A stretch of 64,000 bases of DNA from Bacteroidetes bacterium MedPE-SWsnd-G2 (GTDB lineage: Bacteria; Bacteroidota; Bacteroidia; Flavobacteriales; Flavobacteriaceae), in the NCBI GenBank assembly GCA_001874335.1, contig MPDE01000005.1, positions 124,001-188,000 of the forward strand. The letters are read 5' to 3'. The notes below the pieces were generated by a model. That model did no database searches. It was not told the DNA's origin and saw nothing but the letters and a program-made list of their open reading frames with translations. The first letter of the stretch is position 1. Every line of letters starts with the position of its first letter. A program made the position numbers and the translations under genes. Below, piece after piece: positions 21,887 to 51,505 of this stretch.

Positions 21887-22681
21887 TTAAAAAGCTCTTA
21901 TGGCGCGAACTTTATGATCTTCGTCCTTCTTTTTTTTCTCTGCTTTCATATGATCTAATTTTAGCAAATAAGATTTTTCGTCGTTTTGCTGAGTTGATGA
22001 CCAATAAGAGTCGTTAACTGAAAGACCATAGGTATTAGAATCGGAATCACTATCTAATGTTTTATTTATGATATATAGTGATTTAAATATGAGTTGTAGT
22101 TCATTTAAAGATGGTAAATACCAATCGGAGAAATTACCTGAGTTGTAGTTGTTGCAAAGCCCTGCTGCTTCATCACTTTCTACACCTTCCTCAACCAAAG
22201 CTAATGTGTTTCCGCTGCCGTTCCATTCACTTTCAGCTTCAGAAATGTCATCATCTTTAAAACCCCATTCTACTTCATCGCCATCACTCATGTCTTCAGT
22301 TGAAATAATTAAACCATGATTTCCGTTGTCATATGTATAAAACACGATTCCTCCACCATAAAATTCACCTATATGATGTGTGTTTTCTGAAGTTGATTCC
22401 TGGATAACTGGAGTCCAAATATCTAATGCGGCATTCCAAAAATAGAATGAATTTGTAGTGGTTAGATACACTAGTAAACCATCTTGTTCATCTGTAGGGT
22501 TCTCTGTCGGGAAGTTGTTGATTCTGGGAACTAGTAAACCGTCATTGAATTCAGGAGCATCTGGATTGGCAACACTTATATCAAATGCAGATTTAGGATT
22601 GGTGGTTCCTACCCCAATTTGTGCTTGAAAATTATTAATACTGAATAGGACAATGGTTAAGAAAAGTGTGGTAGTTTTCAT
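21887..22681 (-). CDS. Secreted protein with IGVGTTNP surface module and DUF1566 (Lcl-like) domain
   Basis: The 264-residue product has a signal peptide (about 1-20), then the Bacteroidota module that begins QIGVGTTNPKSAFDI and ends near FYFWNAALDIWTPV, a short linker, and a C-terminal DUF1566/Lcl-type domain with DWYLPSLNELQLIF, YWSST and the terminal VRAIRAF. Such proteins are exported and thought to act at the cell surface; no enzyme activity is evident. It has its own -7 box and sits between tsf and pyrH, normally neighbours. Its N-terminal module is shared with the tandem proteins at 44.5-47.5 kb. A KAEKKKKDED stretch near the C-terminus is unusual. Confidence 0.8.
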   Translation of the reverse strand: MKTTTLFLTIVLFSINNFQAQIGVGTTNPKSAFDISVANPDAPEFNDGLLVPRINNFPTENPTDEQDGLLVYLTTTNSFYFWNAALDIWTPVIQESTSENTHHIGEFYGGGIVFYTYDNGNHGLIISTEDMSDGDEVEWGFKDDDISEAESEWNGSGNTLALVEEGVESDEAAGLCNNYNSGNFSDWYLPSLNELQLIFKSLYIINKTLDSDSDSNTYGLSVNDSYWSSTQQNDEKSYLLKLDHMKAEKKKKDEDHKVRAIRAF

Positions 22682-37227: not shown

Positions 37228-37249
37228 TAAAAATAGATTGCTAATTTTA
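37221..37249 (+). promoter_or_regulatory. Promoter of the GH20-CutC-GH2 operon
   Basis: TTG (37221-37223, within the first codons of the divergent GH92 gene) and TAATTTTA (37242-37249) are 18 bases apart. The -7 box has one mismatch at the last base. It is the best plus-strand candidate in the 41-base divergent gap. Confidence 0.4.
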
Positions 37250-37268
37250 AAGCATCTAATATAGTAAA

Positions 37269-39536
37269 ATGCAATTCAAGACCCCCGTTTTAGGCTTGTT
37301 TCTTATCGTACTGTTTGGCTGTAGCGATTCTGAAAACTTAAATGTAAACACACAAATCATTCCTGAACCTCAAACTTTAATAACAATAGAGGGTTTGTAT
37401 TCTATGGCAAGTCAGCCCAAAATATATTTTGATGAAGGGTTTAAAATAGCTGGCGGGTTTTTGCTGGATTATATAAATGGCGAAAAGACTGTAGAAGAAA
37501 AAGAAAATGCGGCAATTAGGTTCTTAACCGACCATACAATTAAAAACCCCGAAGCTTATAAGTTAGAAATTAATGAACAAGGGGTGACCATAAAATCTAA
37601 TTCGGACCATGGCGCTTTCTATGCAGTGCAAAGTTTAAGGCAATTATTGCCGGTTGATTTTGAATCTGGCCAATTTGAAAAAGAAATTAAATTGCCTTTT
37701 GTAAATATTGAAGATGCACCAGCTTTTGAATATAGAGGCATGCATTTAGATGTGTCGAGGCATTTTTATTCGGTTACAGAAATTAAAAAATACATTGATG
37801 CCATGGCCATGTTGAAGCTTAATAAGTTCCATTGGCATTTAACCGACGACCAAGGGTGGCGATTGGAGATTAAAAAATATCCGAAACTACAACAAGTGGC
37901 TTCTAAAAGAGATAAAACCCTATTAGGTCATTATAGTGATCAACCCCATCAATTTGATGAACAAGTTTATGGCGGTTTTTATACTCAAGAAGAAGCAAAA
38001 GAGGTGGTGGCTTATGCACAAAGTAAATTTATAACTGTTATCCCAGAAATAGAATTACCAGGGCATTCTCAAGCCGCTGTTGCAGCTTATCCTTATTTAG
38101 GATGTGGTAATCCGGAAGTTAATGTGGCGACAAAATGGGGCGTTTTCGAAACGATTTATTGTACAAAGGAAGAGACTTTTAAGTTTTTAGCCGATGTCAT
38201 GGATGAGGTAATAGAAGTTTTTCCAAGTCAGTACATTCATATTGGCGGTGATGAGGCACCAAAATCAAGATGGAAATCTTGCGAGGATTGTCAAAACAGA
38301 ATAAAAACTGAAGCTTTAGCAGGAGAAGAAGAACTTCAAAGTTATTTTGTTTCCAGAATTGAAAGCTATTTAAATAAAAAAGGAAGACAAATAATTGGTT
38401 GGGATGAGATATTAGAAGGGGGATTAGCGCCAAATGCTACAGTCATGTCTTGGCGAGGTTTTGAAGGTGGATTGGAAGCGGCTAAAGCCGGGCATCAGGT
38501 TATTATGTCTCCTAATTCTAATTGTTACTTTGATTATTATCAATCTGAAAACGAATCGGAGCCTATTGCTATCGGTGGGTTTTTACCATTGCAAAAGGTG
38601 TTTGAGTTTAATCCTATCCCCGAAGAGTTAAAAGGTAATGAAGACGATTTTATTATTGGAGGTCAGGCCAATGTTTGGACCGAATATATGGCTAGTTGGG
38701 ATAAAGTGGAGTATATGGTATTTCCAAGAATATTGGCAATGAGTGAAGCGCTTTGGTCTGCTAAAGCCGATAGAAATTACGACAAATTCCTAACGAAAAT
38801 TGAACCCTATTTCCAGCGGTTAGATCAATTAGATATTAATTATGCTAATCATCTTTTTGATATCAAAGACAGTATTTATTTTCATGAGAACAATACTATT
38901 ATTAAACTTCATACAGAAGCCAATAATAAGAAAATTAGATATACAATAGATGGTAGCATACCAACAATAAAATCTGAATTGTATATAGATTCGATAACGG
39001 TAAAAGGGAGTAAAGTAATTAACGCTATCGCGTTTTCAGGAGAGGAAACAATAGGCAATTTATATACCAAAACATTTAACGCTCACAAGGCACAAGGTAA
39101 ACCAATTTCATTAAGTGTAGAGCCACATAAAGCATACAATACCGGTGGTAAGCAAGCTTTAAATAATGGCGTGGCTGGCAGTAATACAAGATATGGAGAT
39201 AAAGAATGGCTTGGCTTTTTTGGTGATGATGTAAGCGTAACTATAGATTTGAAACAAACGACTGCAGTGACAGAACTAAAAACCAGATGTTTTAATGGTA
39301 ATGGACAATGGATTTATCTACCGAAGTCTATTGAAGTTACATTGGATTCTGGGCAGAGTTTTACGCAAAAGATATCCCCTAATTCTAATACTAAGGCCGA
39401 AGATATTGTGATGCCTTTATCAGGAAACACAAGGTTTTTAAAAATAAAAATCACCAATTTTGGCGAGATCCCTGTAGGTTCTCAAGGTGAAGGAAGTAGA
39501 GCTTGGTTGTTTTTAGATGAATTAACAGTTAACTAA
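37269..39536 (+). CDS. GH20 beta-N-acetylhexosaminidase lipoprotein
   Basis: The 755-residue enzyme removes terminal beta-GlcNAc or GalNAc by substrate-assisted catalysis. It has a lipobox (LFGC, C18), the GH20b-type N-terminal domain, the barrel motifs HWHLTDDQGWRLEI and the catalytic pair in HIGGDEAPK (D328, E329). The C-terminus holds the same type of chitobiase C-terminal beta domain (IRYTIDGSIPT) and discoidin-like domain (WLFLDELTVN end) as the GH92 protein, so both carry similar glycan-binding tails. The next gene, cutC, begins directly after the stop codon. Confidence 0.95.
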   Translation: MQFKTPVLGLFLIVLFGCSDSENLNVNTQIIPEPQTLITIEGLYSMASQPKIYFDEGFKIAGGFLLDYINGEKTVEEKENAAIRFLTDHTIKNPEAYKLEINEQGVTIKSNSDHGAFYAVQSLRQLLPVDFESGQFEKEIKLPFVNIEDAPAFEYRGMHLDVSRHFYSVTEIKKYIDAMAMLKLNKFHWHLTDDQGWRLEIKKYPKLQQVASKRDKTLLGHYSDQPHQFDEQVYGGFYTQEEAKEVVAYAQSKFITVIPEIELPGHSQAAVAAYPYLGCGNPEVNVATKWGVFETIYCTKEETFKFLADVMDEVIEVFPSQYIHIGGDEAPKSRWKSCEDCQNRIKTEALAGEEELQSYFVSRIESYLNKKGRQIIGWDEILEGGLAPNATVMSWRGFEGGLEAAKAGHQVIMSPNSNCYFDYYQSENESEPIAIGGFLPLQKVFEFNPIPEELKGNEDDFIIGGQANVWTEYMASWDKVEYMVFPRILAMSEALWSAKADRNYDKFLTKIEPYFQRLDQLDINYANHLFDIKDSIYFHENNTIIKLHTEANNKKIRYTIDGSIPTIKSELYIDSITVKGSKVINAIAFSGEETIGNLYTKTFNAHKAQGKPISLSVEPHKAYNTGGKQALNNGVAGSNTRYGDKEWLGFFGDDVSVTIDLKQTTAVTELKTRCFNGNGQWIYLPKSIEVTLDSGQSFTQKISPNSNTKAEDIVMPLSGNTRFLKIKITNFGEIPVGSQGEGSRAWLFLDELTVN

Positions 39537-40247
39537 ATGAAGTTAGAAATTTGTGCAAATAGTTATGCTTCAGCTATTAATGCTGAGCAGGCGGGAGCTC
39601 ACAGAATTGAGTTGTGCCAAGAATTACAGATTGGAGGAATCACACCTTCATTTGGATTGATAAAACAAGTGGTAAATGCACTTAGCATTCCAGTTTATGT
39701 GTTGATTAGACCCAGAAGCGGACATTTTGTGTACTCTGAAGAGGAACTGAAAACAATGTTGTATGACATTGAAGCATGTAGGGATTTAGGAGTTAAAGGC
39801 ATTGTTTCTGGAGCTTTACTATCAAACAATGAAATAGATAAAAATAGTTCAAAGCGATTATTGTCGAGTTCAAGAGGTATGGATTTTACATTTCATAGGG
39901 CGTTTGACGCTGTGAATAATCAGTTGAATGGTTTAGATGAATTAAAGACAATGGGTATTAAAAGAGTTTTAACTTCTGGTGGCGCATCTCGTGCTTTAAT
40001 GGGATTGGAGAATCTGAAGTTATTATTAAATCATTCGGAATCAAAAATTACAATTATGCCAGGGTCTGGAATTAATGCCACAAATGTTGGGCAATTCAAA
40101 AAAGCTGGATTTACAGAAATTCACGCCTCTGCTTCAAAAGTGATTAACCCATTAGAGAATGAAAACGATTTGTTTTCTTCCAACATTACAGTTTCTAGTA
40201 TTTCTAATATCAAAGCACTACTTCAAAATATATCTGAGAATGAATAG
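39537..40247 (+). CDS. cutC: CutC-family TIM-barrel protein
   Basis: The 236-residue protein matches CutC from the start (LEICANSYASAINAEQAGAH) through RIELCQELQIGGITPSFGLI and VLIRPRSGHFVYSEEE to MPGSGIN. There is no signal peptide. The family was named for copper tolerance in E. coli, but its reaction is uncertain. Here the ATG follows the GH20 stop with no gap, and the GH2 mannosidase overlaps its end by eight bases, so it is embedded in a glycan operon. A role in handling a released sugar is a reasonable alternative to copper homeostasis. Confidence 0.92.
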   Translation: MKLEICANSYASAINAEQAGAHRIELCQELQIGGITPSFGLIKQVVNALSIPVYVLIRPRSGHFVYSEEELKTMLYDIEACRDLGVKGIVSGALLSNNEIDKNSSKRLLSSSRGMDFTFHRAFDAVNNQLNGLDELKTMGIKRVLTSGGASRALMGLENLKLLLNHSESKITIMPGSGINATNVGQFKKAGFTEIHASASKVINPLENENDLFSSNITVSSISNIKALLQNISENE

Positions 40248-42708
40248 GATTGCAATACTTGTATTAGCATTAGTGTTTGTTGGTTGCTCTTCGAAACCTG
40301 ATACACCCTTAAACTTGAAAATCAATTCAAATTGGACGGTTCATGAAGAAGGTGATTCGATTAGCTATGCAGCAGAGGTTCCTGGTAATATTTACACTGA
40401 TTTATTATTAAATGGAATCATAGAAAATCCATTGATAAATGATAATGCGAAGGATGTGAAATGGGTTTCTGAAAAAAACTGGGTGTATGAAAGTGCATTT
40501 AATTTGGATTCTGAAACTTTAAATAAAAAGCATATTTATTTGAATTTAGAAGGGTTGGATACTTATGCATCTGTTTTCCTAAATGATTCACTTCTTATAA
40601 AAACTAACAATGCCTTTAGAAGCTTTCAGTTAGATATAAAAAAAATATCAAAAACTTCAAATGTTTTAAAAGTGAAATTTCAAAACGGTAGTTCTCTCGA
40701 AGAATCACAAAAGAACAATTTGAGTTACACCCTTCCAGGTGGAGATCGCGTATTTACAAGAAAAGCACAGTTTCAATATGGTTGGGATTGGGGACCAACC
40801 TTAAACACTATTGGTGTTTGGCGACCTGTATCAATTATAGCGTTTAATGAATTTAAGATTAAAAGATCTTCAGTGAAGATAGTAGACTTGAATAAAGACA
40901 AGGCTAAATTAGAGATAGTGCTTGATAAGTATATTAATCAAGATGAAGAATTAGAGGTTGAAGTAAAAATTAATGATTCATTAGTTAAAGTAGATTCATT
41001 TGAATTTCTGAAAGACCAGATAATTATTCCAATAGAAATTGATCAACCAAAATTATGGTGGCCGCATAATATTGGGGAACCTTATCAATATAGTTTTGCC
41101 GTTGAGGTAAGAAAAAATGGAGTAGTTGTCGATTCTGCACGTTTTAGAAAAGGCCTAAGAACGGCTCAATTAGTAACAGAAAAAGATAGTTTAGGAGAAA
41201 CCTTTGTTATTAAGGTAAATGACGTTCCTGTTTATTGCAAGGGAGTAAACTATATACCGCAACATAGTTTTCAAAACAGAGTAACAGACAAGGATTATAA
41301 TCGGCTGCTAGATGATGCCGTGGCTGCAAATATGAATATGTTACGTGTTTGGGGTGGTGGTATTTATGAGGAAGATACATTCTATGAGTTATGTGATGAA
41401 AAGGGTATTATGGTCTGGCAGGACTTTATGTTTGCATGTGCTATGTATCCTGGAGATTCTGCGTTTTTAGATAATGTGGCAGCAGAGGCCAAAGAACAAG
41501 TCATTAAAAGGAAAAACAATGCTTCAGTTGTTTTGTGGTGTGGTAATAATGAAAACTTAGAAGGTTGGAATCGTTGGGGCTGGCAAGCGAGTAATTCCAA
41601 TAAAGAAAACGAAGAAATTAGAGCACACTATCTAAAGGTGTTTGATAGTATTTTGCCAATTGCGGTGGAGCAAGAGTCCGATGTTGATTATTGGGAGTCG
41701 TCACCAAGATACGGTAGGGGCAATCCAGAATTTCAATTTAAGGGCGATGCTCATGATTGGGGTGTCTGGCATGATGGATATCCGTTTAGCCGATTTGAAG
41801 AAAAAGTACCGCGATTTATGAGTGAATTTGGTTTTCAGTCGTTACCAAGTAAGGAGGTGTTAATGATGATGACCAATGCAGATAGCCTTTTGTTTGATGA
41901 TAAGATGTTGAAAACACATCAAAAACATTCAAGAGGGTTTGATATCATGAATACTTATATGGAACGCGATTTTGTGATTCCTAATAATGTTGAGGATTAC
42001 GCGTATATGAGTCAGTTGGTTCAAGCTTGGGGAATTACTAAAGGCATCACAGCTCACAGAATCGCCAAGCCTTATAATATGGGTACTTTGTATTGGCAGT
42101 TTAACGATTGTTGGCCAGCAATATCCTGGTCAAGTATCGATTTTAATGGCAATTGGAAGGCGTTACATTATGACGCAAGTAGAGCTTTTGATAATGTGCT
42201 GTTGAGTTCAAAACAAGTTGATAACGCATTGAATTTTTATGTTGTAAATGATAACTTAAATGCACTAAAAGGTAAGTTTAAGGTTGAGGTAAAAAGTTTT
42301 GAAGGTGAAGTTTTACATGCTGAAAATCTGCTTATTGACGTTGGTGCAGACGGAAGCAAAATGGTATTTCAATTGAACTTAGATGAGCTGGATGTAAATG
42401 CGTCCCAGGTTTATATTCATGCTACATTTTTGGATAAAGAATACATTGGGTATTTGGAAAGCCCGAAATTTTTAGAATTAAATCAATTGCCAATTCAACA
42501 GTCTGTAAAAACAATACAAGGCGGATTTGAAATTACCTTATATAGTGAAACCTTGCAAAAAGATGTGGCCTTAGAACTAGGGGGGGCTCGTTTTAGTGAT
42601 AATTATTTCGATTTATTGCCTCAAAGAGCAATAACTATTACTGTATTTACAGATGCTAAAGATTTAAATCAATTGGAAATCAAAACGTTTAACAAATTCA
42701 TAAGATGA
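40240..42708 (+). CDS. GH2 beta-mannosidase lipoprotein
   Basis: The 822-residue enzyme removes the single beta-linked mannose of the N-glycan core. It starts with a lipobox (LVFVGCSS) and has the GH2 sugar-binding, Ig-like and barrel domains. The acid/base Glu is in WCGNNENLEGW (E438) and the nucleophile in FMSEFGFQS (E529); this WCGNNE...SEFGFQS pattern is characteristic of beta-mannosidases rather than beta-galactosidases. The frame is open to 40159, but the lipoprotein signal begins at MNRIAILVLAL, so the ATG at 40240 is used. That overlaps cutC by eight bases. Confidence 0.94.
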   Translation: MNRIAILVLALVFVGCSSKPDTPLNLKINSNWTVHEEGDSISYAAEVPGNIYTDLLLNGIIENPLINDNAKDVKWVSEKNWVYESAFNLDSETLNKKHIYLNLEGLDTYASVFLNDSLLIKTNNAFRSFQLDIKKISKTSNVLKVKFQNGSSLEESQKNNLSYTLPGGDRVFTRKAQFQYGWDWGPTLNTIGVWRPVSIIAFNEFKIKRSSVKIVDLNKDKAKLEIVLDKYINQDEELEVEVKINDSLVKVDSFEFLKDQIIIPIEIDQPKLWWPHNIGEPYQYSFAVEVRKNGVVVDSARFRKGLRTAQLVTEKDSLGETFVIKVNDVPVYCKGVNYIPQHSFQNRVTDKDYNRLLDDAVAANMNMLRVWGGGIYEEDTFYELCDEKGIMVWQDFMFACAMYPGDSAFLDNVAAEAKEQVIKRKNNASVVLWCGNNENLEGWNRWGWQASNSNKENEEIRAHYLKVFDSILPIAVEQESDVDYWESSPRYGRGNPEFQFKGDAHDWGVWHDGYPFSRFEEKVPRFMSEFGFQSLPSKEVLMMMTNADSLLFDDKMLKTHQKHSRGFDIMNTYMERDFVIPNNVEDYAYMSQLVQAWGITKGITAHRIAKPYNMGTLYWQFNDCWPAISWSSIDFNGNWKALHYDASRAFDNVLLSSKQVDNALNFYVVNDNLNALKGKFKVEVKSFEGEVLHAENLLIDVGADGSKMVFQLNLDELDVNASQVYIHATFLDKEYIGYLESPKFLELNQLPIQQSVKTIQGGFEITLYSETLQKDVALELGGARFSDNYFDLLPQRAITITVFTDAKDLNQLEIKTFNKFIR

Positions 42709-42750: not shown

Positions 42751-43986
42751 ATGATTAGATGGCTAATTTTTATTGTCATTTTCGGATTGCTAGATTTCTA
42801 CGCATTTCAATCTTTTAAAACTATAACCAAAAGCCCGTGGATTCATATTCTGTATTGGCTTGTTTCTATTTTAGTATTAGGAAACTTGGTATATCAATTC
42901 TATAACTTTAACCGCAGCGAAGGCTTTTCTCAAAGCAATTCAATAGCCATTGGTTTTTTCATTGCGTTTATGGTACCAAAATTAATTTTGCTATTCTTTA
43001 TGTTTAGTGAAGATGTGTTTAGAGTGCCTCAAGCGCTTTATAGCTATTTTACTGCTGGAGATACTGTAGAAGGTAAGCATTTACCTGGACGAAGAAAATT
43101 TGTAAGTCAAGTTGCTTTAGGGCTAGCAGCTATACCGTTTGCTTCCATTCTTTATGGAATCTATAAAGGAAGATATAATTTTAAAGTTCTAAAATACACT
43201 TTACATTTTGAAGATTTGCCAGATGCTTTTGATGGCTATAAGCTAACTCAAATTAGTGATGTTCACTCTGGGAGTTTCGACGACCCAGAAAAGGTGAGTT
43301 ATGCCATTGACTTGATTAATGAGCAAAAAAGTGATGTTATTTTATTTACTGGAGACATGGTTAATAATAAAGCTTCAGAAATGGAACCTTATATTGATGT
43401 GTTTAAAAAGTTAGAAGCAAAAGATGGCTTGTATTCTGTTTTGGGTAACCACGATTATGGTGATTATATAAATTGGCCAAGTGCAGATGCTAAACAAGAA
43501 AATATGAATCGTCTTCAGGCAATTCAAAAAGAAATAGGATTTGATTTGTTATTAAATGAGCATCGTTACCTGAGTCGAGGTGAAGAGAAATTGGCTTTGG
43601 TTGGTGTTGAAAATTGGGGGAAAGGTGGATTTAAAAAAGCAGGTGATTTAAAAAAGGCCATTACTGGAATTGACAAAGATGATTTTACAATTTTATTGAG
43701 TCATGATCCTTCGCATTGGGATCAAGAGGTTATCCCTGATAACAAACATTTTCATTTAACCTTAAGCGGTCATACTCATGGAATGCAATTTGGCATTGAA
43801 ATACCAGGTTGGTTTAAGTGGAGTCCTGTAAAATGGAGGTATAAACATTGGGCTGGGATTTATGAGTCTATGGGTCAGTATATTAATGTGAATCGAGGGT
43901 TTGGCTATTTGGCATTCCCAGGAAGAGTAGGGATATGGCCAGAGATTACCGTTATTGAGCTTAAAAAAGGTAGTGCAAATGCTTAA
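42751..43986 (+). CDS. Membrane-anchored metallophosphoesterase
   Basis: The 411-residue protein has three or four N-terminal membrane spans (about 1-130) and then a calcineurin-like phosphoesterase domain. All metal-ligand motifs are present: QISDVHSGS, FTGDMVNN, LGNHDYGDY, LLSHDPSHW and LSGHTHGMQFG. The domain probably faces the periplasm or the cytoplasmic membrane surface. Similar proteins act on lipid-linked phosphates such as UDP-diacylglucosamine, but this sequence does not identify the substrate. It follows the GH2 gene by 42 bases and is probably a separate unit. Confidence 0.88.
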   Translation: MIRWLIFIVIFGLLDFYAFQSFKTITKSPWIHILYWLVSILVLGNLVYQFYNFNRSEGFSQSNSIAIGFFIAFMVPKLILLFFMFSEDVFRVPQALYSYFTAGDTVEGKHLPGRRKFVSQVALGLAAIPFASILYGIYKGRYNFKVLKYTLHFEDLPDAFDGYKLTQISDVHSGSFDDPEKVSYAIDLINEQKSDVILFTGDMVNNKASEMEPYIDVFKKLEAKDGLYSVLGNHDYGDYINWPSADAKQENMNRLQAIQKEIGFDLLLNEHRYLSRGEEKLALVGVENWGKGGFKKAGDLKKAITGIDKDDFTILLSHDPSHWDQEVIPDNKHFHLTLSGHTHGMQFGIEIPGWFKWSPVKWRYKHWAGIYESMGQYINVNRGFGYLAFPGRVGIWPEITVIELKKGSANA

Positions 43987-44039: not shown

Positions 44040-44336
44040 ATGTCAAAATTTGGGGAATTAATAGACGTCGATATTCCTGTACTCTTAGACTTCTTTACAG
44101 AATGGAATGAATCTTCATTAGCAATGCATCCGGTGTTAAGGGATGTTGCAGCTGCACTTGGAGACAAGGCAAAGGTGATTAAAATTGACGTCGAAAAAAA
44201 CAAAGAATTGTCCGAGGCACTTCGCGTAAAAGGTTTACCAACTCTCATTATTTATAAGGGAGGAGAAATGAAATGGCGTTTTAGTGGAGAACAAGACGCA
44301 AATACTCTTATTGGTATTATTCAAAAATATATTTAA
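44040..44336 (+). CDS. Thioredoxin-fold protein lacking the redox cysteines
   Basis: The 98-residue protein aligns with thioredoxin along its whole length: LLDFFTEWNESS where thioredoxins have WCGPC, KVIKIDVEKNKEL, and the cis-proline loop KGLPTLIIYKGGE. There is no cysteine anywhere in the protein, so it cannot do dithiol chemistry. It is more likely a binding or scaffold protein. No signal peptide is present, so it is cytoplasmic. It has its own -7 box and is followed by a perfect palindrome. Confidence 0.85.
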   Translation: MSKFGELIDVDIPVLLDFFTEWNESSLAMHPVLRDVAAALGDKAKVIKIDVEKNKELSEALRVKGLPTLIIYKGGEMKWRFSGEQDANTLIGIIQKYI

Positions 44337-44429: not shown

Positions 44430-44437
44430 TATTTTTG
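44430..44437 (+). promoter_or_regulatory. -7 promoter element of the first spike-like gene
   Basis: TATTTTTG matches TAnnTTTG, 38 bases upstream of the ATG at 44476. The -33 element is not clear. Confidence 0.5.
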
Positions 44438-44475: not shown

Positions 44476-45864
44476 ATGAGAGGATTAATTGTACTGTTGT
44501 GTTTGATTTTTCAAATGAATATGTTGGCTCAAGTAGGAATTGGTACAATGAACCCAGATCCGTCTTCTATTCTGGAATTAAACTCTAAATCACAAGGTTT
44601 TTTGGCTCCAAGATTAAGCACAGCCGAGCGAATAGGGATATCAAGTCCGGCAGAAGGCTTAATGGTTTATGATACTGATGAAGCAGGGATTTTTGTATAT
44701 AGTGGTTCAAAATGGATTGAAATAAACGGAGCAGATACTAGAGATAATTATGTTTTAGTAAAATCTGTCGATGATTTTCCAGATGCCGTTGATGGTAAAA
44801 TTACGTTAGACACCAATACCGTTTATGAAATAAACGGAAGTATTACTCTTAATGTGCCCATAGAATTAAATGAGTCTACCGTTTTTGGAATCGATTTATA
44901 TGCAGATGAATTGTTTTACAATGGAAACGGAGCTTTGTTTACGGGAAGTACGGGTGGCACTTTGTCTAATTTTGCAATTAGAGGAAATAATTCTAATCAA
45001 TTATTTGATTTAACAGGAACAGGATTAACAGGTCGTATTTTAACCAGCTTGAATATGGTTAGTGATTTTAGCAAATTAGGTATTATCGATGCTTTTAATT
45101 TGGTTATTCTAAAAGATTTAAGTTTTGTTAATAATGCTGATGGTATTGTGTTTAAGGATATCATGCATTTAACGACTATCCATACTTTATTTTTGTTTAA
45201 TAATCAAGGAACCTTGATGAAGTTTGAAGGGTCATTCAATGACATCGGTATGTTAGGTGGCGTTTTTGAGGTTAATAATGTAGGCGTTGATGTTTCAAGT
45301 AACCCGATAATATTAAGTGAAGCTTTTATATCTGGGATTTCATTTTCAGGTAGTGGTACAATGGTAAATGGTAGTTTCTCTAAAGAATGGACCATAGATA
45401 CTCCTGGACTGGCAACTGAAAAAGATGAGGTTGCGAGTACAGATATGCATTTTATAAACTCTGGAGGTGCTGTTACTACGTTTAATTCTGCCTCCGAAAC
45501 TAAAAAATTAGAAGGCAATACTACAACCGATTTGTCACATAGGTTTGTTGCTGTCGGTAACAACAGATTACAATATACTGGCCTTAAAAAGAGATATTTT
45601 AATATTATGGTTTCTGGTTCTTTTAAGCCTTCTAACGAGCTTACTTATGTGTTTTATGTTGCTAAGAATGGCGTTGTAGATCAGTCTTCGAAAGCCGTTA
45701 CTCAAGCACCTTCTGGTTGGTTTTCAAGTGAAGGTAAAAGTAGTTTTAGTATCGCATCTCATATAGAGTTAGAGCCCGGTGATTATATTGAGATTTATGT
45801 GGGCAAAGAAGGCTCTGGATCGAGCGATGTTAGATTGTACTCTACAAGTGTAGTTGTATTTTAA
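44476..45864 (+). CDS. Secreted beta-rich surface protein, spike-like (first of a tandem pair)
   Basis: The 462-residue product has a signal peptide (about 1-19), the Bacteroidota surface module QVGIGTMNPDPSSILELNSK through AEGLMVYDTD (about 20-75), a long repetitive beta region (about 90-310) with features of a right-handed beta-helix (TLDTNTVYEINGSITLNVPI), and a C-terminal beta-sandwich (about 355-462) that recalls C1q/TNF-like trimer heads. This order resembles tail spikes of phages, but no phage genes are nearby. No catalytic motif is seen. It is paralogous to the next gene. Confidence 0.75.
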   Translation: MRGLIVLLCLIFQMNMLAQVGIGTMNPDPSSILELNSKSQGFLAPRLSTAERIGISSPAEGLMVYDTDEAGIFVYSGSKWIEINGADTRDNYVLVKSVDDFPDAVDGKITLDTNTVYEINGSITLNVPIELNESTVFGIDLYADELFYNGNGALFTGSTGGTLSNFAIRGNNSNQLFDLTGTGLTGRILTSLNMVSDFSKLGIIDAFNLVILKDLSFVNNADGIVFKDIMHLTTIHTLFLFNNQGTLMKFEGSFNDIGMLGGVFEVNNVGVDVSSNPIILSEAFISGISFSGSGTMVNGSFSKEWTIDTPGLATEKDEVASTDMHFINSGGAVTTFNSASETKKLEGNTTTDLSHRFVAVGNNRLQYTGLKKRYFNIMVSGSFKPSNELTYVFYVAKNGVVDQSSKAVTQAPSGWFSSEGKSSFSIASHIELEPGDYIEIYVGKEGSGSSDVRLYSTSVVVF

Positions 45865-45876
45865 ATTTTTAAAGGT

Positions 45877-45907
45877 AGCAACGGTAACTGTTAAAGTTGC
45901 TGTTTTT
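45877..45907 (+). terminator. Terminator after the first spike-like gene
   Basis: The 6-bp stem AGCAAC/GTTGCT encloses a 13-base loop and is followed by five T residues. Confidence 0.55.
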
Positions 45908-45911
45908 AGTT

Positions 45912-45943
45912 AAAATTACGAAAACGTTTTCGTGTAATTTTTT
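45912..45943 (+). terminator. Second hairpin after the first spike-like gene
   Basis: AAATTAC-GAAAAC pairs with GTTTTC-GTGTAATTT, with a two-base bulge, and is followed by T residues. It may back up the preceding terminator. Confidence 0.45.
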
Positions 45944-46030
45944 CTTGGCTTCCTGGTTGTTAGGTGCTGTTAGTGAGTGTTTTAAAAATGCGTATTGTGT
46001 TTTTTGCGACATTTTGGACCTTAACAATTG

Positions 46031-46063
46031 TTTGTTTCTTTTTGACGATACAGATTATCTTTG
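46031..46063 (+). promoter_or_regulatory. Promoter of the second spike-like gene
   Basis: TTTG (46031-46034) and TATCTTTG (46056-46063) are 21 bases apart, a near-ideal flavobacterial promoter. It lies 27 bases before the ATG at 46091 and rules out the longer frame beginning at the TTG at 46061. Confidence 0.7.
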
Positions 46064-46090
46064 CACGCAGATTCCCAAATCTATTATAAA

Positions 46091-47524
46091 ATGAGAAATT
46101 TACATGTATTAGTCTTGCTAATGTGCTTTACTTTGGCGCATAGTCAAGTAGGTATAGGAACGACAAGTCCAGACCCATCTTCAATTTTAGACATTAGTTC
46201 TGACTCCCAAGGGTTTTTAGCTCCAAGAATGACAACTGCTCAACGACTGGCAATAACCAATCCTGCTGATGGCTTAATGGTATTTGATACAGATCTTGGT
46301 TCGTTTTTATATTTTAATGACACCCTATCTAATTGGGGTGAAATTAAAGCGAGTACCAATGGTCGTGTAAATTATAAGTTAATACAATCTGAAGTCGATT
46401 TAGCCTCTGAGTTAGCTGCAGGTGGAGGTGCCAAATATTCACTTGACGAAAATGTTTTATACGAGATAAATGGAGTTATTTCCTTAAACTACCCAATAGC
46501 TTTGAATGATGCTTATATAATGGGAAGAGATTCTGGAGAAGACATGTTAATTGCATCTGGTGATGTGTTTCAATGTTCAAAAGGTGGTGTAATAAAAAAT
46601 CTAATGTTAAGATCAACTGGAGGAAAAGTATTTAATTTTCAAGGGTCGGGAGCTGAGGTTCTGATGGTTCGAGATTGCATTATTGATGGTTCTTCAGAAG
46701 TAGGGATAATAAAAGATTATTATATGTACTTTTCTTCATTAGTGCTGTTTAGTGCCAACTCTAATGGGATTATCTATGAAAACATAAATGAGTTACTGTT
46801 AGAAAATCAAGGTTGGTATGGGTCAAATTCTGGAATTTATGAAACCTATACAGGAACGTTTGGGAACATTCAGCAGGATGGAGGTTTTTTTGTAGCTAAT
46901 GGTTCAACAATTGGATTGGATGTTAGTTCTAATCCTACAGTTAATAGTGGGATAATATCTGGAGCTGTATTTTCTGGGAATTCAAGCACCTATGTTCAAG
47001 GTTATACTGCGGGCTCGTATTCTGGTTATAATTTTTCTAATGCATGGACCGTTAATTGCCCTGGTATTCCCGAAGAAAGCGATGCGGTAGCCACAGGTGA
47101 TATTAATATGGATTATGCAGAAGGTTCAGGTGCAACAACTAACTTTACAAATAATTCAGAAACAAAGAAAATAGTTGGAACAACAACATCTAATAACCTC
47201 TTTAGGTTTTCGAGAAACGGTAATAATAAAATCGAATATTTAGGAGAAGAATCTCGATATTTTCAGGTAAATGCATCATTGTCATTTAAGCCAACAGCTA
47301 CATCTACTTATATTGTTTACATTGCAAAAAATGGAGTGGTAGAATCTGAAACTAAAGTATATGGAAGGGCGACTTCAAGTTGGTTTTCGCCTGCAAGTTT
47401 AATTGCCTTACCAATCACTGGAACATTGCTTTTAGATAAAAATGATGAAATTTCTGTTTATGTAAGACGGTCTGAAGGTAGTGGTAGTCTTAAAACCCTG
47501 TCTTTAAACTTATCGATTAGGTAA
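46091..47524 (+). CDS. Secreted beta-rich surface protein, spike-like (second of a tandem pair)
   Basis: The 477-residue product has a signal peptide (MRNLHVLVLLMCFTLAHSQ), the module VGIGTTSPDPSSILDISSDS to ADGLMVFDTD, a beta-helix-like central region (SLDENVLYEINGVISLNYPI) and a C-terminal beta-sandwich (RYFQVNASLSFKPTATSTYI). It follows its paralogue in every part, with insertions such as the Ser/Tyr-rich stretch near residue 310. It has its own strong promoter. Its stop codon directly abuts the stop of the convergent deacetylase gene, with no room for a terminator between them. Confidence 0.75.
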   Translation: MRNLHVLVLLMCFTLAHSQVGIGTTSPDPSSILDISSDSQGFLAPRMTTAQRLAITNPADGLMVFDTDLGSFLYFNDTLSNWGEIKASTNGRVNYKLIQSEVDLASELAAGGGAKYSLDENVLYEINGVISLNYPIALNDAYIMGRDSGEDMLIASGDVFQCSKGGVIKNLMLRSTGGKVFNFQGSGAEVLMVRDCIIDGSSEVGIIKDYYMYFSSLVLFSANSNGIIYENINELLLENQGWYGSNSGIYETYTGTFGNIQQDGGFFVANGSTIGLDVSSNPTVNSGIISGAVFSGNSSTYVQGYTAGSYSGYNFSNAWTVNCPGIPEESDAVATGDINMDYAEGSGATTNFTNNSETKKIVGTTTSNNLFRFSRNGNNKIEYLGEESRYFQVNASLSFKPTATSTYIVYIAKNGVVESETKVYGRATSSWFSPASLIALPITGTLLLDKNDEISVYVRRSEGSGSLKTLSLNLSIR

Positions 47525-48160
47525 TTAAAGCGATTTAAATTTATAACCTAAGCCTGAGAAATATTCGAGGGTTTTTGGTAACGCATAGAGCATCCTTTGG
47601 GATGCTTTTTTGCTATCATGAAAGACGATTATACTTCCGGACGACGCATTTTGTTTCACTTTGTTGAAGCATTTTATTGCTGATAAGTTTTGTTTCCAAT
47701 CAAAAGATAACACATCCCACATTACAATCTTAAAACCTTGAGCTAACAATTGTTTTGCCTGTTGGTTTTTAATTCTGCCATAAGGCGGTCTAAATAATTT
47801 TGAAGATTTTGAAGTGTGTTTAGAAATTTCGGTTTCGCAAAGGCCGACATTGGCTATATAATCGTTATAGGTCGTTTTCCATCCGTTATAATGGTTGAAA
47901 GTATGGTTGCCGTATTGGTGGCCCTCATCGATTATAGCTTTAAAAATTTCGGGATACTTTTTTACATTATCACCGATACAAAAGAAGGTAGCTTTGGCAT
48001 TATACGCCTTTAATAATTTAAGAACTTCTTGAGTTACTTCAGGTGTAGGCCCATCATCAAAAGTTAGGTATAAAACCTTGTCCGTTTCAGTCTTTTTCCA
48101 AAGGTAATTAGGAAATAAACGACGAATTAATTTTGGCGTTACTGTTGGTATAAGGGTCAT
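47525..48160 (-). CDS. NodB-type polysaccharide deacetylase
   Basis: The 211-residue protein has the metal-dependent carbohydrate esterase motifs: LTFDDGPTPEV (DD), HQYGNHTFNH (H-x3-H) and RPPYGRI. It probably removes acetyl groups from peptidoglycan or another polysaccharide. No full signal peptide is visible; the N-terminus MTLIPTVTPKLIRRLFPNYL is amphipathic, a form seen in short flavobacterial members. The start codon lies directly after the T-run of a terminator, so its transcription is unusual. Its 3' end abuts the second spike-like gene. Confidence 0.88.
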   Translation of the reverse strand: MTLIPTVTPKLIRRLFPNYLWKKTETDKVLYLTFDDGPTPEVTQEVLKLLKAYNAKATFFCIGDNVKKYPEIFKAIIDEGHQYGNHTFNHYNGWKTTYNDYIANVGLCETEISKHTSKSSKLFRPPYGRIKNQQAKQLLAQGFKIVMWDVLSFDWKQNLSAIKCFNKVKQNASSGSIIVFHDSKKASQRMLYALPKTLEYFSGLGYKFKSL

Positions 48161-48196: not shown

Positions 48197-51100
48197 TTAG
48201 TTTGAATCTAATTGTATGGTGCCTTCATCAAGGTTCGTTCCTGAATCCTCAATAGTTTCAGCATCGTTGGGATTATCCCCACTTATTTGTTTAAATAAAC
48301 TGATGTAATTATTAAATTTTTCGGTTTCTCCTAATGCAAATTCTTTATCGTCGTAAACGACTATCAAATCAACTAATGCTCTATATCTTTCAATATCAGT
48401 AATAATTTCATCGATATAGTTAATCTGCTGAGCTTCTGTTAAACCACTATAGTATTTCAAGCTTTCTTGATATTTCCCAGCGACATCTAAGTATAACTTT
48501 CTGGCTTTATCAACGGCTTCTACTTCGTAATAAGCCGTCATATAAGGCTCCAATAAAGTGTAATACCCGAATTTATGAACTGGCATTTTTTCCATGGCAA
48601 GGTCAGCTACTTTTTCAGCTTTGTCCAATTGCCCTTCATTAATTAATTTTTCAATTAATCTTGCAAGGTTTCCTCTATAAGTTATACCGTTTCTTCGTGT
48701 TTCAACATCATGGTAAATTTCATCGCTACCGCTATTACCCCATTCCCATGACATCACTTTTTCATACATCAAATCGGAATCTACACGACCCATATCATAA
48801 GGATTTGCTCTGCTTACCGGTGTTTTAATCGGTACTAATTTGTAGCACAATCCATCCAATTGCAGATAATCTTTCATCCAGATGTAATCATCATCTCCAA
48901 AACTTCCACCAGAAAAATAAATAGGGCGTTCCCAATTGTTATTGGCAACGACATCTAACATTAATAATCTGTTTTTGTATAATGCGCCTCCTTTAATTCT
49001 AATATCAATATGAGGAACTATTAAATCGGCATCTTCTGGTTTTACGATACCATGCTCTAATACACTTTGTTTGTCAACAGGAATTCTAACATTTTCGGTA
49101 GGGAAGTAATTAGAATTTAATAATTGACTTGGATAAGCACTTACGTCTTCACCTTCTTGAGCCATTACATATTTTAGTTTTGTTTTTGGGTTTTCACTTG
49201 AAACCCAAGTCATGAAACGGTCAATAGGTAAGGTGTCTTTAGATATTTCACGTTTCATAATATAATCACGTGTTCCGTAACTGTATTGACTATGTGTTAA
49301 CTGTGATGGTATCGGTGCGCTTTCATAAGCCTGACGTTTCATTTGGTCGATATACCAATCTGTTTGAAATAAACTGGTGTTTACCACTCTAACATCCCGT
49401 CTAACACCTTCAATTTCTTGTGCATACCAAAGCGGGAAACTATCGTTGTCTCCAATGGTAAATAAAATGGCATTTGGTGCGCAGGATTCTAAATATTTTA
49501 CAGCCATGGCATGGGCTGTTTTACGATCTGAACGGTCATGATCATCCCAGTTATTGGCTGCTAAAATACCAGGGACCAATACCAAACAAGCTAAGGTCAC
49601 TGCTGGAGCTAAAAACGAACTATTTTTAATAGATCTGAGAGCATCATATAAGCCATATACTCCTATACCAATCCATAGAGCAAATACATAAAATGAACCC
49701 ACAACAGAGTAATCTCTTTCTCTGGGCTCAAATGGTCTAACGTTTGTATAGAATTGAATGGCAATACCTGTAAATACAAAAAACACTAATAGCGTCCAGA
49801 ACAGTTTTTTATCTCTTCCAAATACAAATAGTAACCCGATTAGCCCTAAAATAAAAGGCAGGAAGTAATAGGTGTTTCTTCCTTTGTTATTGGTCACATC
49901 GCTTGGTAAATTTTCTTGAGGTAAGCCTAAATGTAATTCATCAATAAAATTAACCCCACTTAACCAATTACCATGGAGGTTATCATATTTACCCTGAATA
50001 TCATCTTGTCTTCCTGTGAAGTTCCACATAAAGTATCTCCAATACATATACCCTAATTGGTATTCAATCATATAAGAAATATTGTCTACAAATGTTGGTT
50101 TTTCAACATTTAAAATTTGACCATAATTTTTAAGAAATGCATTATAATCTGAATAATCAACTTGGCCTTCATTCACCCGTTGCATAAAGTCTGAAACAAT
50201 TTTTCGCACTTCATTATTCATGCGGTATTCTGGTTTGATTTCAAAATTAATCATACCAGTAAACATCATATAATTTTCGGCGTGTTCAGTACTCCACATT
50301 CTTGGTAAGATGTCGGCATGCTCTGAGTTATAATTTTGTTTGGCGTTTTTGTAGTCATTGACGATTACATATTTTCCAAGCGCTTTGTCTTTTTCGTATT
50401 TAGGTTTGTCATCAACATAAGGTTGTTTTTCGTCTAAACCACTATAGATTTCAGTAAACATCGGCCCGTAAAACAAATGTGTTTCAGGGTACTGTTCTAA
50501 ATTATAATAGGCTAATAATTCACGTGCACTTGAAGGGTCATTTTCATTAATTACAACCTTTGCATTTGCTCTAATAGGTAGCATGACCCATGACGAAAAT
50601 CCAATAAAAATAAATAGTAAACACAGAATTAACGTATTGGCATGTACTTTGTTTTTTTTGCGTGTATAGTTTAATCCGTAATAGAAAAGTCCAATTAAAA
50701 GCAACCCGAAGATTATAGTACCTGAGTTAAATGGTAATCCAAAGGTGTTAACAAACAAAATTTCAGACGTACTAAATAGTTTTAATGCGTTTGGTAATAA
50801 AAGTTTAAAAATGAATAAAAGAATAGCCGCCGCTGCAAGGTTGGCTATAATAAAATTCTTTACCGTAACTGTTTTATAGTTTTTAAAGAAATAGATAAGG
50901 CTAATTGCGGGAATGGTAAGTAGTCCCATAAAGTGAACCCCAAATGACAAACCAATAATAAATGCAATTATTACCAGCCATTTATTTCCTCTTGGTGTAT
51001 TCATGTCTTGTTCCCATCTCAGAGCTAACCAAAACATAACTGCCATAATTAGGGTGGCCATGGCGTAAACTTCGGTTTCAACAGCGTTAAACCAAAATGA

Positions 51101-51505
51101 ATCGGTAAATGTAAAAGCTAAACTACCAACAATGCTACTTCCTAAAATAGCAATTGCTTGATTTTTATCTATAGTTTCTTTTACCAACAATTTTTTAAGC
51201 AAAAGACTAATGGTCCAGAACATAAAAAGAATGGTAAAAGCACTTGCTGCTGCACTCATAAAGTTTAGCATCATCCCAATTTGAGCAGGCTCTAAAGCGA
51301 ACATTGAGAAAAATGCACCTAACATTTGAAACAATGGTGCTCCAGGAGGATGCCCAACTTGTAGTTTAGATGAAGTTAAAATATACTCCCCAGCATCCCA
51401 AAAACTAACTGTTGGCTCTATAGTTAAACCATATGTAATTAAGGCTATTGCGAAAACTGCCCATCCTAATATGGTGTTCCATTTCTTGAAATTAAATTCT
51501 GTCAT
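48197..51505 (-). CDS. DUF2723 family membrane protein (PMT-like glycosyltransferase fold)
   Basis: The 1102-residue protein has an N-terminal membrane part with about 12-14 spans and a large C-terminal soluble region. The N-terminal EPTVSFWDAGEYILTSSKLQ with the following GHPPGAPLF motif is typical of DUF2723 and places the acidic residues where GT-C glycosyltransferases have their catalytic site; EVYAMATLI is another family segment. The C-terminal helical part (about 960-1080) may hold TPR-like repeats. It may transfer sugars from lipid carriers to exported proteins or lipids, but the substrate is not known. Confidence 0.88.
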   Translation of the reverse strand: MTEFNFKKWNTILGWAVFAIALITYGLTIEPTVSFWDAGEYILTSSKLQVGHPPGAPLFQMLGAFFSMFALEPAQIGMMLNFMSAAASAFTILFMFWTISLLLKKLLVKETIDKNQAIAILGSSIVGSLAFTFTDSFWFNAVETEVYAMATLIMAVMFWLALRWEQDMNTPRGNKWLVIIAFIIGLSFGVHFMGLLTIPAISLIYFFKNYKTVTVKNFIIANLAAAAILLFIFKLLLPNALKLFSTSEILFVNTFGLPFNSGTIIFGLLLIGLFYYGLNYTRKKNKVHANTLILCLLFIFIGFSSWVMLPIRANAKVVINENDPSSARELLAYYNLEQYPETHLFYGPMFTEIYSGLDEKQPYVDDKPKYEKDKALGKYVIVNDYKNAKQNYNSEHADILPRMWSTEHAENYMMFTGMINFEIKPEYRMNNEVRKIVSDFMQRVNEGQVDYSDYNAFLKNYGQILNVEKPTFVDNISYMIEYQLGYMYWRYFMWNFTGRQDDIQGKYDNLHGNWLSGVNFIDELHLGLPQENLPSDVTNNKGRNTYYFLPFILGLIGLLFVFGRDKKLFWTLLVFFVFTGIAIQFYTNVRPFEPRERDYSVVGSFYVFALWIGIGVYGLYDALRSIKNSSFLAPAVTLACLVLVPGILAANNWDDHDRSDRKTAHAMAVKYLESCAPNAILFTIGDNDSFPLWYAQEIEGVRRDVRVVNTSLFQTDWYIDQMKRQAYESAPIPSQLTHSQYSYGTRDYIMKREISKDTLPIDRFMTWVSSENPKTKLKYVMAQEGEDVSAYPSQLLNSNYFPTENVRIPVDKQSVLEHGIVKPEDADLIVPHIDIRIKGGALYKNRLLMLDVVANNNWERPIYFSGGSFGDDDYIWMKDYLQLDGLCYKLVPIKTPVSRANPYDMGRVDSDLMYEKVMSWEWGNSGSDEIYHDVETRRNGITYRGNLARLIEKLINEGQLDKAEKVADLAMEKMPVHKFGYYTLLEPYMTAYYEVEAVDKARKLYLDVAGKYQESLKYYSGLTEAQQINYIDEIITDIERYRALVDLIVVYDDKEFALGETEKFNNYISLFKQISGDNPNDAETIEDSGTNLDEGTIQLDSN

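Follow-up and report, generated by a model that had tools for sequence, protein, structure and literature searches.

Within a 64,000-nucleotide stretch of the Bacteroidetes bacterium MedPE-SWsnd-G2 genome (contig MPDE01000005.1, positions 124,001 to 188,000; hereafter the window, whose positions are used as coordinates throughout), we see a tandem pair of genes encoding secreted, spike-like paralogues. We judge it quite probable that the two proteins are trimeric surface adhesins with exchangeable tips, likely to bind glycans, in which a helix-plus-head unit of common ancestry with phage virions is carried on a base of the bacteria's own.

Both open reading frames lie where an earlier, sequence-only reading of this DNA (the initial annotation) had placed its ‘tandem secreted paralogues’, and that description holds: the two proteins share 40% identity across 473 positions (E 1e-90) and each divides into an export signal and three modules, as follows.

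44476-45864, plus strand: spike paralogue 1 (P0001), whole gene, 462 amino acids; from the open frame, AlphaFold and the family alignment
44476-44529, plus strand: signal peptide of paralogue 1, residues 1-18, predicted cut before the invariant Gln19; from the rule for Gln at +1
44530-44736, plus strand: QVGIGT N-terminal module of paralogue 1, residues 19-87, common to other exported proteins and phage fibre proteins
44740-45420, plus strand: right-handed beta-helix of paralogue 1, residues 89-315; from structure comparison
45421-45861, plus strand: C1q/TNF-like head of paralogue 1, residues 316-462; from structure comparison to BxpB
46091-47524, plus strand: spike paralogue 2 (P0002), whole gene, 477 amino acids; from the open frame and AlphaFold
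46091-46144, plus strand: signal peptide of paralogue 2, residues 1-18; from the same Gln +1 rule as in paralogue 1
46145-46354, plus strand: QVGIGT N-terminal module of paralogue 2, residues 19-88
46361-47080, plus strand: right-handed beta-helix of paralogue 2, residues 91-330; from structure comparison
47081-47521, plus strand: C1q/TNF-like head of paralogue 2, residues 331-477, the part exchanged among relatives; from the BxpB match and breakpoints in relatives

Paralogue 2 is taken to start at the ATG at 46091, where its signal peptide begins; the mechanically called frame opens at a TTG at 46061. The first residue of the mature protein (+1) is glutamine in 77 of 77 family members, with Ala, Ser or Gly at -1. 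We judge the Sec signal peptide to be sound because this agrees with the Q-rule of Bacteroidetes, under which glutamine is expected at +1 of signal peptidase I substrates (PMC5837995); export of the pair through Sec is strongly supported by the sequence. Searches of Pfam and NCBIfam with both proteins returned no match up to an E-value of 10, and hence no enzyme family; the spike family has no model covering it in either collection.

The predicted structures, modelled as single chains with AlphaFold, are of good quality for both proteins: the predicted local distance difference test score (pLDDT) is 86.0 for paralogue 1 (25 sequences in the alignment) and 92.4 for paralogue 2 (77 sequences; predicted template modelling score 0.80), the first twenty residues of the QVGIGT module being of low confidence. 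Below this module we see stacked, three-sheet rungs, of which 209-224 residues can be aligned at 2.3-3.1 Å with many tailspikes and lyases, as befits a right-handed parallel beta-helix. The helix of paralogue 1 matches PL6 alginate lyases, ORF18 of Geobacillus virus E2 and the tailspikes of Sf6 and CBA120 with VIA-align Z-scores of 17-20, and that of paralogue 2 matches capsule depolymerases and tailspikes at 17-21; the Klebsiella K1 capsule lyase is also among the matches for the pair (Z 17-21). At the C-terminus, the jelly-roll head of paralogue 1 superposes on BxpB (PDB: 8d02) with a Z-score of 15.5 and a root-mean-square deviation of 2.1 Å over 131 residues, within the ~130-150 residues typical of the fold, and the head of paralogue 2 does so with a Z-score of 15.8; taken together, the heads match BxpB/ExsFA and BclA of the Bacillus exosporium at Z 14-16 over 120-131 residues. 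The solved homologues of this head (BclA, C1QL, APRIL and Bd2439) are trimers. The beta-helix-like centre, the C1q/TNF-like head and the phage tail-spike-like layout foreseen in the initial annotation are therefore all borne out by the two models and by structure comparison; searching the PDB by sequence, whether with each protein or with the family profile, gave no meaningful match.

The part of the spike that varies is the head. Mean column identity across the family falls from 0.67 in the N-terminal module and 0.62 in the helix to 0.49 in the head, and of 87 pairs of proteins whose helices reach 74% identity or more, 17 fall below 50% identity in the head, most of the others lying at 50-80% or more. 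In Flavobacterium petrolei (L109) and F. caseinilyticum (L052), at the same locus, the helices are 80% identical and the heads 32%; for L109 and a further member, L099, again at the same chromosomal locus, the corresponding values are 82% and 34%. In both comparisons nucleotide identity drops from ~0.8 to 0.4-0.5 near residue 335, which is to say at the junction of helix and head. The reverse is seen between Winogradskyella (L055) and Xanthomarina (L078), with helices 52% and heads 81% identical. In agreement with this, the approximately unbiased (AU) test rejects the grouping of L052 with L109 for the heads (p 0.0016) while retaining it for the helices (0.645), and rejects that of L055 with L078 for the helices (p 0.0003) while retaining it for the heads (0.376). 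The ratio of non-synonymous to synonymous substitution rates (dN/dS) is mostly 0.03-0.2, indicating purifying selection in all three domains; positive selection on the heads was considered and rejected, as dN/dS is low in every domain and the diverged heads show raised dS too, which points instead to replacement of the head. Heads are thus exchanged among species where helix and head meet, orthologous loci included, and by something more than fast drift. A binding part that faces changing demand would be expected to show such replacement of the tip while the locus stays the same, and head swapping strengthens the case for the possible role in adhesion that the initial annotation proposed.

The initial annotation knew of no defined role for this architecture; here we differ, as a characterised parallel exists in the mosaic adhesive trimer (MAT) superfamily of Bdellovibrio bacteriovorus, whose fibres are found on the cell surface and in which tips of several kinds, among them S74, C-type lectin and TNF-like ones, are borne on one conserved base (PMC10769870). 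One of these fibres, Bd2439, combines a beta-helix with a TNF-like tip, is located at the surface and binds N-acetylglucosamine (GlcNAc) and lipopolysaccharide (PMC10769870). The likeness to the MATs Bd2439 and Bd2734 extends to the signal peptide, the conserved N-terminal base, the beta-helix, the exchangeable TNF-like or other tips, the presence of several paralogues per genome and the occurrence of members with and without S74; the tip of Bd2734 (PDB: 8okw) is itself in our Foldseek list, with a template modelling (TM) score of 0.67 to the target. A single base bearing adhesive or S74 tips of various kinds is likewise the pattern in our proteins, the tips being BclA_C-like, Lcl_C, fibrinogen_C, S74, tail collar and helix plus TNF-like head. 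There are differences as well. The MAT base is ~130 amino acids long, beta-rich and follows the signal peptide, whereas the module in the window is of ~65-70 amino acids with a motif of its own; the host is a member of the Bacteroidota and not a predator; the window proteins are half as long; and surface location and binding have been shown for MATs, whereas the window pair is known from sequence and models. We have not filed the window proteins as MATs, a class defined by the base of ~130 amino acids.

By analogy, the signal peptide would take each chain through Sec, for which the sequence gives strong support; the QVGIGT module would then serve as a base seating the trimer at the envelope; the beta-helix, a fold predicted with high confidence and presumed trimeric from its homologues, would form the shaft; and the C1q/TNF-like head, whose fold is predicted and whose exchange is evident from sequence, would be the replaceable tip, probably binding a glycan target, to judge from Bd2439 and from the fold. 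Helix and head together would constitute a unit with ancestry common to a tailed-phage virion protein, mounted on the bacteria's own base, and the family would work much as a Bdellovibrio MAT does, with one conserved base and many phage-type tips.

Several observations weigh against such adhesins. Neither protein has a type IX secretion system (T9SS) sorting domain (Por_Secre_tail or CHU_C) by Pfam or NCBIfam, and there is no lipobox or outer-membrane anchor in either of them; the same genome has SprA and ~49 proteins with T9SS sorting domains, the window pair not being among them. Near-invariant acids in P0002 (E125, D147, D151, E329 and D331; window 46463-47083) are placed where the helix begins and in the linker that joins helix and head. 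They are candidates for an ion site, for stacking or for catalysis, and the invariant D147, D151 and D331 could represent an active or ion site, not plain binding. As regards the exchange of heads, the grouping of L099 with L109 was not rejected for the heads in the AU test (p 0.147), and the pairs tested were picked after their identities were known.

The acids bear on what we regard as the main alternative, albeit an unlikely one: that the pair are secreted polysaccharide-cutting enzymes of the tailspike/lyase type, with the cell's own matrix or algal glycans as their substrate. The helix is most like those of PL6 alginate lyases and phage depolymerases (Z 19-21), some carboxylates are invariant, glycoside-hydrolase-like genes lie upstream and a polysaccharide deacetylase gene adjoins. 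There is also a precedent in WceF of Pantoea stewartii, a trimeric, tailspike-like glycosidase acting on stewartan (PMC7949094), which is likewise a chromosomally encoded bacterial protein with a tailspike-like trimeric beta-helix (PDB: 6tgf; Z 17.7 to the window helices). WceF differs, however, in being an exopolysaccharide hydrolase encoded within an exopolysaccharide synthesis cluster, with no described QVGIGT base or exchanged TNF-like head (PMC7949094). The fold alone shows no activity, and no enzyme family in Pfam or NCBIfam matches. Moreover, ~220 of 229 helix residues align with a stretch that takes up 280-325 residues in the lyases, so that few of the long loops that build a cleft are present; in a profile alignment two early invariant Asp residues appear not to be conserved in the phage homologue described below; and it is the head that is exchanged rather than the helix. 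Phage tailspike depolymerases (Sf6, CBA120 TSP2, Klebsiella K2) share the helical shaft and the C-terminal beta-sandwich, yet the window proteins come without a virion, with few helix loops and with no catalytic site identified.

Less likely still, in our estimation, are structural proteins of a matrix, surface layer or gliding apparatus, self-assembling through their heads in the manner of BxpB/ExsFA and BclA. The best matches for the heads are indeed exosporium proteins, which have the same head fold but differ in having no beta-helix and in their role on the spore exosporium. In 24 of the 78 loci named for the family, moreover, the spike gene immediately follows one that encodes a surface-type protein of ~600-650 amino acids with a weak T9SS sorting domain (e.g. 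L102 6022-7974, with about 24 alike), itself often behind genes for a sensor kinase and a response regulator. Such a protein is a possible partner of the spike. Against self-assembly, a part with that task should retain its head, yet heads are exchanged, and the window genes have no such partner adjoining. A T9SS partner as a general rule was also considered and is retained as a lead only, as the arrangement is confined to those 24 loci, is absent from the window locus and is not found next to the BclA-headed genes discussed below.

Returning to the helix-plus-head unit of the proposed adhesins, a Foldseek search of viral models (BFVD) gave three top proteins whose match extends over the entire model (TM 0.59-0.76), the second of which, A0A2I7QW32 (441 amino acids), we take from its equal length to be NVP1077O_18 of Vibrio phage 1.077.O (Zobellviridae). 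Aligned with the family profile by hhalign, NVP1077O_18 scores E 2.1e-11 (E 5.8e-12 with a larger alignment) over ~365 columns that take in the helix and the head from end to end; two unrelated controls, one a secreted enzyme and the other a T9SS protein, gave E 0.3. The phage protein is matched over 54-440 by phrog_16509, and this profile in turn matches the bacterial member L017 (residues 91-472 with profile positions 16-410 of 414; E 2.3e-9) and, over the head, members L019 and L021. The window proteins alone have no match to phrog_16509, the link running through the family profile (E 2e-11 to the phage protein) and L017. The likeness to phrog_16509/NVP1077O_18 is thus one of significant sequence homology, with helix and TNF-like head covered over their whole length; the phage protein differs in its N-terminus (MAIHKDLGDAELHEPKG...), in having no signal peptide and in being encoded beside a capsid gene. 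More exactly, its gene is two genes downstream of that for the major capsid protein, an annotation carried by the related phage 1.015.O, and precedes the genes for head completion.

On this evidence the helix-plus-head unit and a protein of tailed-phage virions have a common ancestry, and transfer may have gone either way. The initial annotation suggested derivation from a phage receptor-binding protein, of which the homology to a virion-module protein stands, in sequence and in fold; given the position of the phage gene by the capsid gene, ‘receptor-binding’ goes too far and an origin in the tail is unsupported, the phage relative being likelier to belong to the head module than to be a tail spike. 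In the IMG/VR collection, exact peptide patterns found no close relatives. The family alignment recovered only one full-length copy, at the edge of an integrase-bearing contig in which no capsid or tail genes were recognised, together with matches to the N-terminal module in phage fibre-like proteins. The phage proteins with this module are mostly of cyanophages. In a protein of the cyanobacterial phage Lbo-JY46 of Leptolyngbya (L130 5068-6210), the module is 55% identical to the consensus from flavobacteria (E 3e-16), a surprisingly close likeness given the difference in host.

Homology to a virion protein, and the frequent replacement of heads that an arms race predicts, might also suit decoys or adsorption blockers that tie up a phage receptor. 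We think this very improbable, as no defence genes were recognised near the spike pair, Vibrionaceae are the hosts of the known homologous phages and the viral searches turned up no flavobacterial phage that has the unit. That the genes are prophage remnants or encode a phage-derived particle, as their phage-type domains might suggest, is scarcely credible given their Q-rule signal peptides, the absence of virion genes nearby, their fixed place in many genera, purifying selection and the setting of the sole full-length IMG/VR copy. In line with the initial annotation, which saw no phage nearby, the window has no recognised phage genes, its content being housekeeping and glycoside-hydrolase-type genes, and the GC contents of the spike genes (0.348 and 0.356) are close to the window mean (0.348); the setting of the pair is a chromosomal housekeeping neighbourhood and not a phage structural module.

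The base of the proposed adhesins is also found under other tips. In the same genome six proteins have the QVGIGT module: the window pair, a protein with an Lcl_C tip and a tandem trio elsewhere. The Lcl_C protein is encoded within the window and is the only one of the three there with this domain, Pfam finding none in the pair; its gene lies in the rpsB/tsf and pyrH/frr region.

21887-22681, minus strand: third window protein with the N-terminal module, exported, with an Lcl_C tip (Pfam PF07603, E 4.8e-9, over the cut-off)

The trio (L187 2479-4741; C2 near 134-137 kb) comprises three tandem genes of ~250 amino acids in which the module is joined directly to BclA-like heads. These heads are BclA_C-like by weak Pfam scores below the cut-off, and one member matches the family head profile (E 4.8e-6) with the helix missing. 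The trio adjoins a queE-like gene, has a T9SS gene near but not adjacent to it, and has a counterpart of similar tandem arrangement in another genome (G070, L191). In other Bacteroidota the domains that follow the module are fibrinogen_C, phage tail collar, S74 chaperone and FG-GAP, and overall we find the module in 56 of 247 sampled Bacteroidota genomes, at up to 11 per genome. These data lead us to a broader proposal, which we hold to be evenly poised between right and wrong: that the Bacteroidota have an uncatalogued, phylum-wide class of mosaic surface spikes, in which a QVGIGT base exported under the Q-rule carries phage-type tips swapped between species by recombination at domain joints, the window pair being one branch, whose helix shaft and C1q/TNF-like tip occur in tailed-phage virions too. 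A text-term search of part of the literature found no description of the N-terminal module or of the family; the parts are of known kinds, and it is their combination, the phylum-wide common base and the exchange of heads that we did not find described in the part searched.

As to distribution, full-length members of the spike family are present in 23 of 149 other Flavobacteriaceae genomes, sampled at one per genus, and a plasmid search gave no match. The 78 named loci come mainly from Flavobacterium, Aequorivita, Winogradskyella, Leeuwenhoekiella and Psychroflexus, with some from Weeksellaceae and from metagenome-assembled genomes (MAGs) labelled Saprospiraceae and Cytophagaceae. In L108 7971-9449 (Aequorivita vladivostokensis) and L110 7968-9442 (a Flavobacteriaceae MAG), the spike gene is split into two frames at the same locus, and these copies may be decaying, phase-variable or misassembled. 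In the family tree, paralogue 1 groups with Haloflavibacter, though on a long branch that leaves its exact place unsure, and paralogue 2 with a large Flavobacterium clade. A recent duplication of the window pair can be ruled out, as the paralogues fall in different clades and represent old lineages.

The neighbourhood of the pair in the window is made up of the following genes.

42751-43986, plus strand: phosphoesterase, conserved upstream neighbour
44040-44336, plus strand: thioredoxin, conserved upstream neighbour
47525-48160, minus strand: polysaccharide deacetylase (convergent), conserved downstream neighbour by neighbourhood comparison
48197-51505, minus strand: DUF2723 protein, conserved downstream neighbour by neighbourhood comparison

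Beyond the DUF2723 gene come usp, rimP, nusA and infB. Some 25 of the 78 loci (~25/78) keep the phosphoesterase/thioredoxin/deacetylase/DUF2723 neighbourhood around the spike gene, which lies at slightly varying points within it, and in two further genera (G078 and G101) a tandem pair sits exactly between thioredoxin and deacetylase. With this kept neighbourhood and the low dN/dS given above, the spike genes are resident and under selection. Just upstream, at 34276-42708, is a run of genes that by sequence are GH92-like, hexosaminidase-like, CutC-like, beta-mannosidase-like and for a sugar permease, which suggests use of N-glycan-type sugars.

The initial annotation also gave each gene its own promoter and terminator signals. 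Boxes and hairpins do exist at these places, found by pattern only or by pattern scan:

44430-44437, plus strand: weak TAnnTTTG promoter-like box before paralogue 1
46056-46063, plus strand: promoter-like box (TAnnTTTG) ahead of paralogue 2, itself preceded by a TTTG box
45880-45904, plus strand: terminator-like hairpin after paralogue 1
47587-47608: terminator-like hairpin after paralogue 2, inside the convergent gene

The upstream TTTG box is present before paralogue 2 only. Upstream of relatives, the TAnnTTTG motif (a Bacteroidetes-type -7 box) occurs in 21 of 75 cases against 15.8 +/- 3.5 in shuffled sequence, a slight enrichment, and terminator-like hairpins number 5 against 2.9 +/- 1.7 expected, marginally above chance; as pattern evidence for expression signals this is weak and near to chance.

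Should our reading of the pair as surface adhesins be correct, a large group of marine and soil bacteria would have a Bdellovibrio-like repertoire of phage-type grippers with exchangeable tips, proteins that went unnamed because no curated family covers them, and flavobacteria would have in them concrete candidates for the recognition of algae, particles or other cells. Since heads are exchanged while the locus stays fixed, natural spikes with the same shaft and different heads open specificity to direct test. More broadly, phages and bacteria would be using the same binding unit on different bases.

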